From Rikenellaceae bacterium (GTDB lineage: Bacteria > Bacteroidota > Bacteroidia > Bacteroidales > Rikenellaceae): a DNA stretch of 64,000 nucleotides. Numbering within the stretch: the stretch's first letter is position 1; each line of letters begins with the position of its first letter. The stretch is from NCBI GenBank assembly GCA_017463585.1, contig JAFTOX010000003.1, positions 62,001 through 126,000 on the forward strand, in the 5' to 3' direction. Under the pieces are notes generated by a model. That model saw only the letters and a list, made by a program, of their open reading frames with translations. It ran no database searches and was not told the DNA's origin. The translations under genes and the position numbers were made by a program. Of the stretch, positions 54,699 through 59,220 are shown piece after piece.

Positions 54699-55640
54699 AT
54701 GAAACCAGAAATTGTTTTCTTGGACGAATATTCGTTGAGTAATGCAGATTTGTCGCGTGTACGCTCGATGGGCGATTATCGTTCCTATTACAATACGTTG
54801 GCGGATGAGATTGTTGAGCGTGTCGGCAATGCTGAAATTGTGATCACGAATAAGGTGCCTTTCTCGCGTGAAACGATGAAGGCTCTGCCCAATCTGCGAC
54901 TGATCTGTGTGGCAGCGACGGGTGTCAATATCATTGACCTTGAAGCGGCGGCCGAACTTGGTATCGAGGTGCGAAATGCGGCGGGTTATTCGACTGAGTC
55001 GGTGACTGAAACCACGATTGGCGCAGCGTTGGCTTTGTGCAGAAATATAGGCTATTACGACAATTATATCAAGTCGGGTCGATACTCGGCAGATGGGTTG
55101 ATGTTCAATTTTGATCGTCCGACGCGACGTCTGTGTGGAAAGCGTTGGGGTGTGATTGGATTGGGCGCAATTGGCCGAAATGTGGCACGTGTAGCGCAGG
55201 CGCTTGGTTGCGAGGTGGTATATGCCTCGACGTCGGGTGTTAAGCGCGAAGAGGCGTGGCAGTGTGTGTCGCTCGAAGAGCTTTTGTCGACTTCTGACGT
55301 GGTTTCGATACATTGCCCGCTCAATGCCGCAACGCGCAATTTGATAGATGCTGCAAAACTTGATATAATGAAACCCGACGCTCTGTTAATCAATGTTGCA
55401 CGTGGTGGTATTGTTGATGAGAAAGCGTTGGCTGAGGCGATCGATGCAGGCAAGATCGGAGGTGCGGCGCTCGATGTGTTTGTGAATGAGCCAATCGAGG
55501 CAGATTCACCGTTGTTGAAGGTCGAAAAGAGCGACCGATTGTTGCTTTCGCCGCACAATGCGTGGTCGGCAGCCGAGTCGATTACGACGTTGGTTGGTTG
55601 TATCGAACGCAATATCGAGGACTATCTCGCTCGTCGATAA
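54699..55640 (+). CDS. D-2-hydroxyacid dehydrogenase
   Basis: 313 residues. The NAD-binding loop GVIGLGAIGRNVARVAQAL is central, and the catalytic triad is present: Arg in LINVARGGIVDEKAL, Glu in LDVFVNEPIE and His in LLLSPHNAW. It is of the size of hydroxypyruvate/glyoxylate reductases (HprA-like) and related D-lactate-type enzymes; the exact substrate cannot be read. It shares a transcript with the secreted esterase (24-bp gap). The stand-alone RNA begins about 38 bp after its stop. Confidence 0.88.
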   Translation: MKPEIVFLDEYSLSNADLSRVRSMGDYRSYYNTLADEIVERVGNAEIVITNKVPFSRETMKALPNLRLICVAATGVNIIDLEAAAELGIEVRNAAGYSTESVTETTIGAALALCRNIGYYDNYIKSGRYSADGLMFNFDRPTRRLCGKRWGVIGLGAIGRNVARVAQALGCEVVYASTSGVKREEAWQCVSLEELLSTSDVVSIHCPLNAATRNLIDAAKLDIMKPDALLINVARGGIVDEKALAEAIDAGKIGGAALDVFVNEPIEADSPLLKVEKSDRLLLSPHNAWSAAESITTLVGCIERNIEDYLARR

Positions 55641-55642
55641 GT

Positions 55643-55672
55643 TTTGCAATTGCAAAAGATTTCGTATATTTG
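55643..55672 (+). promoter_or_regulatory. Strong promoter of the stand-alone RNA
   Basis: TTTG (55643-55646), an 18-bp spacer and TATATTTG (55665-55672) match the consensus exactly. They begin right after the dehydrogenase stop codon, with no reading frame downstream for about 330 bp. Confidence 0.85.
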
Positions 55673-55677
55673 TCGAA

Positions 55678-55867
55678 GAAATTGAGGCTATAATTTAGCC
55701 ATTTTACAATAACATATAACTCAATCGCTGTCGAATCACCACCTCGTAAGCAGACGAGTTAGTACAATTCTTGTTGGGAGTATTGTGCCCGATTGGCGCA
55801 GATTTCCCATAAAGAATTGTGGCTTGTGGTGAGCCCGACAGCGTATGGCGAATATCTGCGCTTTTTT
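55678..55867 (+). ncRNA. Candidate stand-alone structured RNA, about 190 nt
   Basis: A perfect promoter precedes it and a T7 run (about 55861-55867) ends it. Visible pairings are ATTGAG / CTCAAT near the 5' end with an inner GGCTA / TAGCC; then a main arm CGCTGTCG / CGACAGCG, TCACCAC / GTGGTGA, ACAATTCTT / AAGAATTGT, TGGGA / TCCCA and TGTGCC / GGCGCA with a 5-nt loop. A small side hairpin CTCGT / ACGAG sits in the 5' strand of a large asymmetric bubble. GCGCAGAT inside the apical arm can instead pair with ATCTGCGC just before the T-run, so two folds compete. Size and shape fit a 6S-type or Bacteroidales-1-like RNA; a riboswitch is less likely because the next gene seems to have its own promoter. 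The 55641-56004 gap holds nothing else except that promoter. Confidence 0.65.
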
Positions 55868-55922
55868 TTATTTGTGCAGGTCGCCTATGACGATATGTGA
55901 ATGATTTACGAATATACGGGTT

Positions 55923-55955
55923 TTTGCCGAAAATCACCCTGTCGGTTTAACTTTT
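55923..55955 (+). promoter_or_regulatory. Promoter of the transglutaminase-like gene
   Basis: TTTG (55923-55926), a 21-bp spacer and TAACTTTT (55948-55955, one mismatch); the ATG is 49 bp downstream. Confidence 0.5.
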
Positions 55956-56004
55956 CGCGTCTTCGTGCGTCATATAGTCAAAGGTACTTAAAATTATAAA
56001 TGTT

Positions 56005-57249
56005 ATGAAGAAAAATTTTGTGAATCTGAAAACGATTGTTCTGCTCATACTCGCTATGACGGCTATCACCACGTGGGCGCAGACACCTGCTTGGCAGCAG
56101 CAACTCGATCGCCTTGACAAGGAGGCTGATCAACTCTACGAAAAACAGGATTGGAAGCGACTTGTTGCCAATCAGGAGCAATATCGCAAAATCATTATGG
56201 CTCAACCCGATTCGGTGCGTCAGGAGTATTTGTGGGACACGGATCTGTCGGGTAATTTCTACTACAATTTGGCTTGTTGGCGAGCTCTTGCGGGCGACAA
56301 GAGAGGGGCGTTGAGCACGTTCGAGTATTACACCGACCGCGTGATCAACCGCGAAGAGATACGTCTGTCGCACATTAACACCGACAGCGATCTAAATTCA
56401 CTGCGCGAAGAGCCGCGTTTCGTGAAATGTATGGAGCGCTTGCAAAAATGGGGCGATTACAAACAGATTTTGAAAGACGCCAAGCCCTACTATTCGGGCC
56501 TGCACCCCGAGGGCATAAAGTTCCGCTATATGGCGCCCAATAATCCCGACTTGGTTCAACTGCGTGAGCAATTCAAGTTGGATAGTGTGGCTGGCGCAGG
56601 CGACGAAATTTCAAAGATTAAAAACCTTCTGCATTGGGTTCACGAGGTTGTGCCACACGATGGCAACTCGGATAATCCCAAGATTAAGAATACAGCCGCA
56701 ATGATCGAGCTCTGCCGAGAGGAGAATCGTGGCGTAAATTGTCGTATGATGGCTCAGATGCTCACCGAGGTATATCTCGCAATGGGTTTCAAGGCGCGAT
56801 TTGTAACCTGTATGCCAATGAATTATGTGAGCGATTGCCACGTTATAACAGTTGTGTACAGCAATACGCTCAATAAATGGGTGTGGGTCGATCCGACATT
56901 CGATCTGTTTGTGATGGACGAGAATGGAACAATGCTTTCGATCGCCGAAGTGCGCGAGCGTATCCGTAACGATAAACCTTTGCAGATCAACGACTATGCA
57001 AATTGGAATCACCGATCGCCGCAAACCAAAGAGTATTACATCGACCACTATATGGCAAAGAATCTATACTACTTGGTGTGTATGGAGCACTCGCGATTCA
57101 ATGCCGAAACCGTCATCGAGGGTCAGACGTATCGCTATATTGCGCTTATGCCCTACGACAAGATAAACTCCGAATCGAGTGCGATAGGTTGGAACGATCT
57201 CCGTATATGCGACGAGCAACTGTTCTGGCAATCACCCTATGAAGAGTAA
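56005..57249 (+). CDS. Secreted transglutaminase-like protein
   Basis: 414 residues with a hydrophobic N-terminal signal (about 9-25, TIVLLILAMTAITTWA). Residues 30-170 are helical and TPR-like (FYYNLACWRALAGDKRGALSTF). The transglutaminase core keeps the triad: Cys246 (NRGVNCRMMAQM), His279 (SDCHVITVVY) and Asp296 (WVWVDPTFD). Such domains can be peptidases, cross-linkers or inactive binders. It stands alone downstream of the stand-alone RNA and has its own weak promoter and a strong terminator. Confidence 0.82.
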   Translation: MKKNFVNLKTIVLLILAMTAITTWAQTPAWQQQLDRLDKEADQLYEKQDWKRLVANQEQYRKIIMAQPDSVRQEYLWDTDLSGNFYYNLACWRALAGDKRGALSTFEYYTDRVINREEIRLSHINTDSDLNSLREEPRFVKCMERLQKWGDYKQILKDAKPYYSGLHPEGIKFRYMAPNNPDLVQLREQFKLDSVAGAGDEISKIKNLLHWVHEVVPHDGNSDNPKIKNTAAMIELCREENRGVNCRMMAQMLTEVYLAMGFKARFVTCMPMNYVSDCHVITVVYSNTLNKWVWVDPTFDLFVMDENGTMLSIAEVRERIRNDKPLQINDYANWNHRSPQTKEYYIDHYMAKNLYYLVCMEHSRFNAETVIEGQTYRYIALMPYDKINSESSAIGWNDLRICDEQLFWQSPYEE

Positions 57250-57290: not shown

Positions 57291-58259
57291 TTAGTCGAAC
57301 GATTGCATACCCGATTGGGCGATCTGCATAATGCGATAGTATTGGTCGGGTGTCAGCTCCATAAAGAAGTAATGGATCGGATCGACACGCATACCGTTGT
57401 AACGCACCTCATAATGGAGGTGTGGTGCGAGCGAAAGACCCGTATTGCCACTCAGCGCCACGATATCGCCACGACGTACCGTCGCCCCGCGCTTGACATA
57501 AACCTTACTCAGGTGGCTGTATGAGGTGGTGTAGCCGTTGCCGTGATCGATTACGAGAGTTTGACCCGATGTCGAGTTGCGCAGAGCCACCTCGCTGACG
57601 CGGCCGTCGGCAGTAGCAAAGACTCGGGTGCCCTCGGGGACGGTGTAATCGACACCTTGGTGCGACGCCAACGTCTTGAAGAAGGGGTGGATTCGCATAC
57701 CGTACGAGGCGGTGAGTAGAGTCAGCTCGTCGTTGATAACGGGTTGAATAGCAGGGATATAGTTGCGTTCGTTGCCCGCGTCGCTAATTTTGTGCAGCAA
57801 CTTACGATAGGACGAGGTCAGCGACTCGATATTCTTCTCCATCGAGGTTACTCGTTCGTTGAATGTGCGCGAAAGGACATCAGTCGGCTGGCTGATAAGA
57901 TTCTCATAACGAGCCCAACTGCTCACGTTACCACCGCCTCCCATATCGTAGGGGTCGGCCTCGAACATAATGTTAAAGACATTCTTGTCGCGAGCCACAA
58001 CATTATCAATCACACGCGAAATGGAGTCATAACGTGCGCTCAGTACCTCGTACTCCTCACGCAGACGATCGGTCGAGTGCTTGGCTGCGTACTCGGTCGG
58101 AGTGTCGAAGAAGAGCGAAAAACCGAGATAGTAGCAAACAGCCAATCCGATCCAAACGAAAGCTTGGATCACACCGCGCGAGATCTTCTGTCGCAGTTGG
58201 CGACGGCAGCGCATACGCTCGACGCGCTCTTCACGGGATATGTTATTAGTCTGCTTCAT
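57291..58259 (-). CDS. M23 (LytM-type) metallopeptidase, membrane anchored, second of a pair
   Basis: 322 residues. A basic N terminus (RCRRQLRQKISR) and one membrane helix (about 28-50) precede a coiled coil (60-160) and a LytM domain. The zinc ligands are complete: His200 and Asp204 (SHQGVD), and His280/His282 (PHLHYEV). It should cut peptidoglycan cross-bridges or stems in the periplasm. Its start overlaps the end of the upstream M23 gene by 14 bp, so the two are translationally coupled. The long coiled coil resembles that of division-linked LytM proteins. Confidence 0.9.
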   Translation of the reverse strand: MKQTNNISREERVERMRCRRQLRQKISRGVIQAFVWIGLAVCYYLGFSLFFDTPTEYAAKHSTDRLREEYEVLSARYDSISRVIDNVVARDKNVFNIMFEADPYDMGGGGNVSSWARYENLISQPTDVLSRTFNERVTSMEKNIESLTSSYRKLLHKISDAGNERNYIPAIQPVINDELTLLTASYGMRIHPFFKTLASHQGVDYTVPEGTRVFATADGRVSEVALRNSTSGQTLVIDHGNGYTTSYSHLSKVYVKRGATVRRGDIVALSGNTGLSLAPHLHYEVRYNGMRVDPIHYFFMELTPDQYYRIMQIAQSGMQSFD

Positions 58260-59220
58260 AGGTAGTTTCGCGTGCCGAGCTGATGATGTCCTCAAACTCT
58301 TCGGCGCTCATATTCTTATTAATGTAATTGATCGGGTTCACGTGGTGGCCCATATAAAGCACCTCGTAATGGAGGTGCGGACCGGTCGAAATACCCGTAT
58401 TGCCCAAGTCTGCAATGCGCTGACCGCGCACAATCTTGTCGCCCTCTTTGACCCAAACCTTATCCAAATGGGCATAGCGGGTTTGGTAGCCGAACTCGTG
58501 GTCGATCACGATCTGCGTGCCGTAACCGCGACGCGAGCGGGTGATCTCAACCTCTTTAACCGTGCCGTTGCCTGTCGCATAAACCGGATCGCCGATATGA
58601 CCTCCGAGGTCGATACCTTTGTGAGGTCGCCAGATGTGCAATTTGGGGTGGAAACGCATACCGTAAGCGCCAATGTGACCTTTAAGTAACTTCTTGTCAA
58701 TCGGCATAATAGCAGGTATGGCCAGCGACATATTCTCCTTGTTCTTTGCTAATATCTGCAACTCGTCGAATGAGCGCGATTCGAGATAGGTTTTGCGTGT
58801 CAATTCGTCGAGTTTGATCCACGTCGAGGTCATCAATGACGAGTAGTCGTCGCCGCGTAACGAGGCGTACTTCGAATCGGGATAGGGCGAATATATACCG
58901 TCGATCGAGAGCGTGTCGGCTGCGAACAGGGTGCGATAGACACGGTTGTCGCGGTGCTTGATTTCGTCCAGTTGATTCATCGAGGCGTCGATCTTGCTCT
59001 GCAAAATTCGATACTTGATGATAAGTTCGTTGTTTTCGCGATGGATTCGGTAGAGTTTGGGTGTGTAGAAGAAATACGAAAAGATCGCATTGAAGATCGA
59101 CGCAAGGATAAAAGCAACCAAAATTTTTCGCAAAAGGCGATAGTACCGCAGCTTGAAAGGCGCGGTTACCACCTCGTAAGTGAGTGTCTGCGGGTTGAAT
59201 TTATACTCTTTTTTCTCCAT
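58246..59220 (-). CDS. M23 (LytM-type) metallopeptidase, membrane anchored, first of a pair
   Basis: 324 residues. A short cytoplasmic segment (YKFNPQTLTYEVV) and one membrane helix (about 31-52) precede a coiled coil (55-95) and a LytM domain. The zinc ligands are complete: His200 and Asp204 (PHKGID), His282/His284 (PHLHYEV). The N-terminal pattern is shared by Bacteroidetes M23 proteins transcribed divergently from alaS. It overlaps its paralogue by 14 bp, and the two have identical spacing of catalytic residues, suggesting an old duplication. Confidence 0.9.
   Translation of the reverse strand: MEKKEYKFNPQTLTYEVVTAPFKLRYYRLLRKILVAFILASIFNAIFSYFFYTPKLYRIHRENNELIIKYRILQSKIDASMNQLDEIKHRDNRVYRTLFAADTLSIDGIYSPYPDSKYASLRGDDYSSLMTSTWIKLDELTRKTYLESRSFDELQILAKNKENMSLAIPAIMPIDKKLLKGHIGAYGMRFHPKLHIWRPHKGIDLGGHIGDPVYATGNGTVKEVEITRSRRGYGTQIVIDHEFGYQTRYAHLDKVWVKEGDKIVRGQRIADLGNTGISTGPHLHYEVLYMGHHVNPINYINKNMSAEEFEDIISSARETTYEAD

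Follow-up and report, generated by a model that had tools for sequence, protein, structure and literature searches.

Does the structured RNA of about 190 nt at this locus, which has its own promoter and terminator, act as a free-standing regulator or as the leader of the gene that follows it? It lies in a stretch of 64,000 nucleotides from a Rikenellaceae bacterium, analysed here as a whole (the window). An earlier note on this DNA had described an orphan, trans-acting RNA, such as a 6S RNA of the Bacteroidales-1 type. Given that the RNA has two competing folds, one with a stop signal, and stands before exported-protein genes, it probably acts as a hitherto undescribed on/off switch of secreted- and surface-protein genes, not as a free-standing 6S-type RNA. 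The locus has the following outline.

55643–55672, plus strand: Bacteroidetes-type promoter (TTTG −33 element, 18-nt spacer, TATATTTG −7 box), read from the sequence
55677–55869, plus strand: leader RNA, ~190 nt, from the fold z-score, family alignments and covariation
55686–55700, plus strand: 5′ hairpin GGCTA/TAGCC, of varying sequence among relatives
55862–55869, plus strand: U-run of the predicted intrinsic terminator (T8 in the window sequence)
56005–57249, plus strand: downstream gene for a signal-peptide protein with a transglutaminase-like domain (PF01841, E = 1.6e-8)

The promoter is present as the earlier note gave it (TTTG-N18-TATATTTG), with TTTG at 55643–55646 and TATATTTG at 55665–55672, and 118 of 128 relatives (15.5 expected) have a TAnnTTYG box at the matching distance before the RNA. 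The RNA start (55677–55680) is predicted from the −7 box and its end is taken as the U-run; the terminator ascribed to it is likewise there, T8 closing the RNA and a U-rich tail being kept in 97 of 103 relatives. Folding of 55665–55869 gave −77.9 kcal/mol, compared with −51.2 ± 4.0 kcal/mol for dinucleotide shuffles (z = −6.63), and none of 200 shuffles folded as well; together with the covariation across the family, this bears out a structured RNA. No plausible plus-strand open reading frame (ORF) was found within the RNA region, in agreement with the claim that the ~190 nt contain none. The core of the leader is CACCACCTCG...GGYTTGTGGTGARCC; the 5′ hairpin differs in sequence in other relatives, yet a hairpin stands at the equivalent place.

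At least 129 relatives were recovered by pattern, and more by covariance model, nearly all of them in Bacteroidales. A blastn comparison with related genomes revealed copies within the RNA's own genus and two from a different family. The first covariance model (R1) was positive in 15 of 344 genomes of the order, in some of them two or three times, and 20 chosen genomes contained 1–5 copies each; the distribution is patchy. Scanning the GTDB genomes by pattern detected at least 118 stretches; among the matches listed, nearly all are labelled as Bacteroidales groups (Prevotella, Bacteroidaceae, Muribaculaceae, Rikenellaceae/Alistipes, Parabacteroides, Dysgonomonas and Barnesiella), with a few metagenome-assembled genomes labelled otherwise. 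The pattern scan yielded nine further stretches in putative viral contigs; blastn against phage and plasmid collections gave no match to the leader. A class-wide search with a second model (R2) added one member, in another order (locus L248). Two loci are unusual in form. Three leader copies stand in series at L175:4086–5422, ~540–625 nt apart and each with its own TAnnTTTG-like box, before an ORF that by eye starts like a SusC/RagA-type TonB-linked protein, and a fourth copy lies ~5 kb further on in the contig. At L086:7983–8146 (genome G040), a degenerate copy has lost its 5′ half and kept the 3′ terminator part, upstream of a lipoprotein gene resembling one behind the intact copies of G041 and G059; this natural deletion is useful for testing function. 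The literature searched, including the main text of a paper on structured RNAs of the human microbiome (PMC8040213), contains no description of the leader.

Each helix of the RNA belongs to one of two folds: P1–P5 make up the long arm of Fold I, and Fold II consists of helix A, hairpin K and an arm, T, directly before the U-run.

55726–55843, plus strand: P1, CGCTGTCG (55726–55733) with CGACAGCG (55836–55843), from the alignment of 103 sequences
55737–55831, plus strand: P2, CACCAC (55737–55742) with GTGGTG (55826–55831), almost invariant
55765–55819, plus strand: P3, CAATTCTT (55765–55772) with AAGAATTG (55812–55819), from the same alignment
55784–55800, plus strand: P5, TGTGCC (55784–55789) with GGCGCA (55795–55800), from the same alignment
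55717–55761, plus strand: helix A, TAACTC (55717–55722) with GAGTTA (55756–55761), from the swap test and pair counts
55821–55835, plus strand: hairpin K, GGCT/AGCC, whose loop holds the P2 3′ strand GTGGTG, from pair counts
55795–55862, plus strand: terminator arm T, GGCGCAGAT (55795–55803) with ATCTGCGCT (55854–55862), from the swap test and covariation

In Fold I, 95.5% of cells form standard pairs across 103 sequences. P1 is paired in 98.5% of cells and P3 in 96.1%, each with changes on both sides in all seven pairs, and P5 in 91%, again with changes on both sides; P2 is paired in 99.8%, a value partly fixed by the search pattern, and changes from CACCAC/GUGGUG to UACCAC/GUGGUA in distant members. 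The covariation score was 0.646 (0.193 when shuffled), with 672 double changes (180 when shuffled), figures that lean towards Fold I because the alignment was fitted to it; compensatory changes in P1 were already visible in the first alignment of seven sequences, which was built without structure.

Fold II, which is absent from the covariance model, also covaries (score 0.261 versus 0.170 shuffled, with slid controls at ≤0.085; 152 double changes versus 52 shuffled). Helix A, of family form TARCTC with GAGYTA, scored 15.2 with its own partner and 12.8 with partners swapped, and occurs as AACTC/GAGTT, AGCTC/GAGCT, TGCTC/GAGCA and GGCTC/GAGCC. Hairpin K has the family form GGY..RCC around GUGGUG; its third pair is C-G in 92 and U-A in 33 of 125 distinct sequences, with no mismatch, although mismatches were permitted by the search pattern. 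Arm T averages 11 bp and scored 25.9 compared with 20.7 when swapped; its family form is GGCGCAGAC with GUCUGCGC, extended by CCAUA/UAUGG (in the window, CCATA at 55807–55811 with TATGG at 55844–55848). The second pairing proposed in the earlier note, GCGCAGAT with ATCTGCGC, exists in the window and covaries across relatives, and the idea of two competing folds is supported by covariation of both.

The helices exclude one another one by one, A against P1, K against P2 and T against P5. P5 and T share GGCGCA, the 3′ strand of the one being the 5′ strand of the other, which makes P5 the predicted antiterminator; the putative antiterminator and terminator are thus mutually exclusive, as in terminating riboswitches, and both covary. 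Judged from the sequences, the three exclusions are the anatomy of a two-state switch. By computation, Fold I is the minimum-energy fold of the window copy (−70.6 kcal/mol; Fold II, −58.2 kcal/mol), and the family average puts Fold I ahead of the T-containing fold by 11.6 kcal/mol, so that a factor or kinetic trapping would be needed for Fold II to form. Computed folding of growing prefixes forms helix A by about nucleotide 80, next P3–P5, and then refolds to P1/P2, an order that makes a kinetic choice between the folds plausible in this model.

The RNA is closely tied to the gene downstream. The cis-regulatory arrangement that the earlier note had named beforehand as speaking against its own reading is what we observe: the RNA directly precedes same-strand genes in almost all relatives, so an orphan, trans-acting RNA is not borne out. 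The nearest downstream gene is on the same strand in 95 cases and on the opposite strand in 10, and a same-strand ORF of ≥100 aa starts 15–90 nt after the U-run at 79% of testable loci, the corresponding figures being 15% for randomly placed anchors and 13% for the divergent side; this is the 5′-leader position of a riboswitch. This stricter test was used because a looser one (60 aa within 400 nt) was weak evidence (24/27, versus 22/27 on the divergent side and 66% of random anchors). No conserved protein is widely shared among neighbours within 8 kb, which had at first suggested a free-standing RNA, an idea dropped after orientation and spacing were measured. A separate promoter for the next gene, as had been supposed, was not seen: the sole TAnnTTYG box in 55560–56010 is the RNA's own, and such boxes in the spacer between U-run and gene are no commoner than chance (4 of 103, 7 expected). 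In function, the element is predicted to extend into the gene that follows, which corrects the earlier note. A GGCAATATTGCA-like palindrome occurs between terminator and start codon in about a quarter of the loci.

The window's own gene, the predicted target of the leader, starts 131–136 nt beyond the U-run, a wider spacing than most relatives have. Leader and transglutaminase gene are kept together in three other loci from Rikenellaceae and Alistipes, L108, L171 and L191 (96, 78 and 74% identity), of which only L108 also shares the upstream dehydrogenase gene, and an orthologue in genome G016 (78% identical) lacks the leader and has an TAAATTTG (TAnnTTTG) box just before its ATG. On the basis of this linkage despite a changed upstream gene, and of the leaderless orthologue, the leader is, as far as these loci indicate, a removable module at the 5′ end of the transglutaminase gene. 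Beyond this gene, on the minus strand at 57291–59220, lie two adjoining genes whose products by eye resemble M23-type cell-wall peptidases.

Across the family, the downstream proteins are mostly exported. A signal-peptide-like start, called by a simple sequence rule, is present in 89 of 108 downstream proteins and 161 of 496 other ORFs (p = 8e-22), and a lipobox in 40 of 108 and 47 of 496, respectively (p = 2e-11). The outlying member in another order (L248) and one in Bacteroidales (L249) each lie upstream of a gene with a signal-peptide-like start. Pfam domains include BspA-type LRR, Big_2 Ig-like, peptidase C10 with Spi inhibitor domain, clostripain C11, transglutaminase, lipocalin-like, OMP barrels and several DUFs. 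The genes share no pathway, and a minority are cytoplasmic or mobile-type genes, for example an EcoRI-type methylase and a weak DUF3800 match. As an exception to the exported-protein rule, two genomes (L071 and L073) have the leader before an EcoRI-type adenine methyltransferase gene.

We consider it likely that the leader is a cis-acting transcription-attenuation leader (a candidate orphan riboswitch) controlling exported-protein genes. The promoter would start a ~190-nt RNA able to fold in either of two mutually exclusive ways. In Fold I, P5 would hold the terminator 5′ strand, and the polymerase would read through into the gene ~50–130 nt downstream; in Fold II, T would form directly before the U-run, so that transcription stops and a short RNA is released. 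Fold choice would thereby set expression of the exported protein, here the transglutaminase-like one. Comparison and computation show the two folds with their covariation, the promoter, the U-run and the linkage to same-strand exported-protein genes; we infer that the switch acts at termination, with Fold I as the ON state and the choice of fold biased by a ligand, protein or other factor. Several features count against attenuation: Fold I is computed to be the more stable fold, T encloses ~50 nt, which is large for a terminator loop, the downstream genes share no pathway, and the spacing from U-run to gene in the window is unusually wide. Since the leader is common to many unrelated surface-protein genes, the signal is more likely to be broad (a second messenger, common metabolite or general RNA-binding protein) than to be a metabolite of one pathway, and a riboswitch ligand and a protein factor are about equally possible. 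The family alignments do contain the conserved, covarying, aptamer-like structure of a riboswitch, and we tentatively suggest a new class that responds to a small molecule common to many Bacteroidales, perhaps a second messenger, and acts by termination to turn surface and secreted proteins (adhesin-like BspA and Ig-domain proteins, cysteine proteases and lipoproteins) on or off. It is just as conceivable that the attenuator is controlled by a protein or the ribosome, with an RNA-binding protein or antitermination factor recognizing the invariant CACCAC/GUGGUG core. The almost invariant short core and the position before functionally unrelated genes, as in protein-controlled regulons, agree with this; no candidate protein was identified, and, as regards the ribosome, the 5′ segment of the window copy has no ATG from the predicted start to P1, as the short translated ORF of a leader-peptide attenuator would need.

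Readings outside attenuation fare less well. A trans-acting 6S RNA of the Bacteroidales-1 type, binding RNA polymerase, would agree with the long arm with its internal loop, the promoter, the terminator and the size of ~190 nt, and neither RF00013 nor RF01693 has a match anywhere else in the RNA's own genome. Neither model matches the window either at E values up to 10; tRNAs aside, no other Rfam family passes its gathering threshold, either in the window or among 20 diverse relatives, and an Rfam E-value scan of the window returned chance matches only. RF01693 is present in 47 of 198 genomes of the order, and five genomes (G085, Heminiphilus faecis AM35; G202; G088; G171; and G211) carry it and the leader at separate loci. 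On the model searches and this coexistence we reject the 6S/Bacteroidales-1 identity; considering also the patchy occurrence in 1–5 copies per genome, tied to same-strand downstream genes, we regard a 6S role as highly improbable. An experimentally supported 6S RNA with product RNAs has been described in B. thetaiotaomicron (PMC7366714). Either the genome's own 6S RNA has diverged too far or the assembly lacks it, and the missing match is a gap, not evidence that the leader fills it. Among the genomes listed in one order-wide RF01693 search, a single further member of this family (G173) appears, likewise without a match; because neither genome has one, the 6S RNA of the family may be undescribed or too divergent.

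It is also unlikely that the RNA is a constitutively terminated 5′-UTR sRNA acting on other mRNAs, for which the downstream linkage would merely supply a promoter. Such sRNAs are known in B. thetaiotaomicron (PMC7366714), and the RNA has its own promoter, a strong terminator and, in Fold II, an unpaired conserved CACCACCTCG; this would leave unexplained the tight spacing to the start codon and the conserved antiterminator P5 competing with T, and a promoterless gene behind a constant terminator would hardly be expressed. Similarly doubtful is a single compact fold of all helices, in which T is a pseudoknot of the apical loop with the 3′ tail. T might coexist with intact P1–P3 if the ~10-nt linker CGTATGGCGA spans the arm, but its 5′ strand overlaps P5, a linker of ~3 nt makes A topologically incompatible with P1, and the 7-nt loop of K traps the P2 strand.

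To our knowledge, few cis-regulatory RNA classes are known in Bacteroidota. The candidate attenuation leader is defined at base-pair level by covariation, offers a testable two-state mechanism and marks surface- and secreted-protein genes of gut and rumen Bacteroidales as a candidate regulon; its signal, once identified, would indicate what Bacteroidales sense when changing their surface.

The leader resembles Bacteroidales-1 RNA (RF01693) and Bacteroides 6S RNA in size, taxon and possession of its own promoter, and differs in being a gene-linked leader without a model match that occurs at separate loci in the same genomes. With 6S RNA (RF00013) it shares a long bulged arm and refolding potential, but no model match, here or in its own genome. 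It is like intrinsic-terminator riboswitches in its 5′ leader position, conserved core, U-run and a strand common to antiterminator and terminator; it differs in having no Rfam family match, and its downstream genes encode diverse exported proteins, whereas most riboswitch regulons serve one pathway. Although its architecture is different and it has no Rfam sequence or structure match to them, the leader is like the c-di-GMP (GEMM-type) riboswitches in that one leader class stands ahead of many unrelated surface- and secreted-protein genes.
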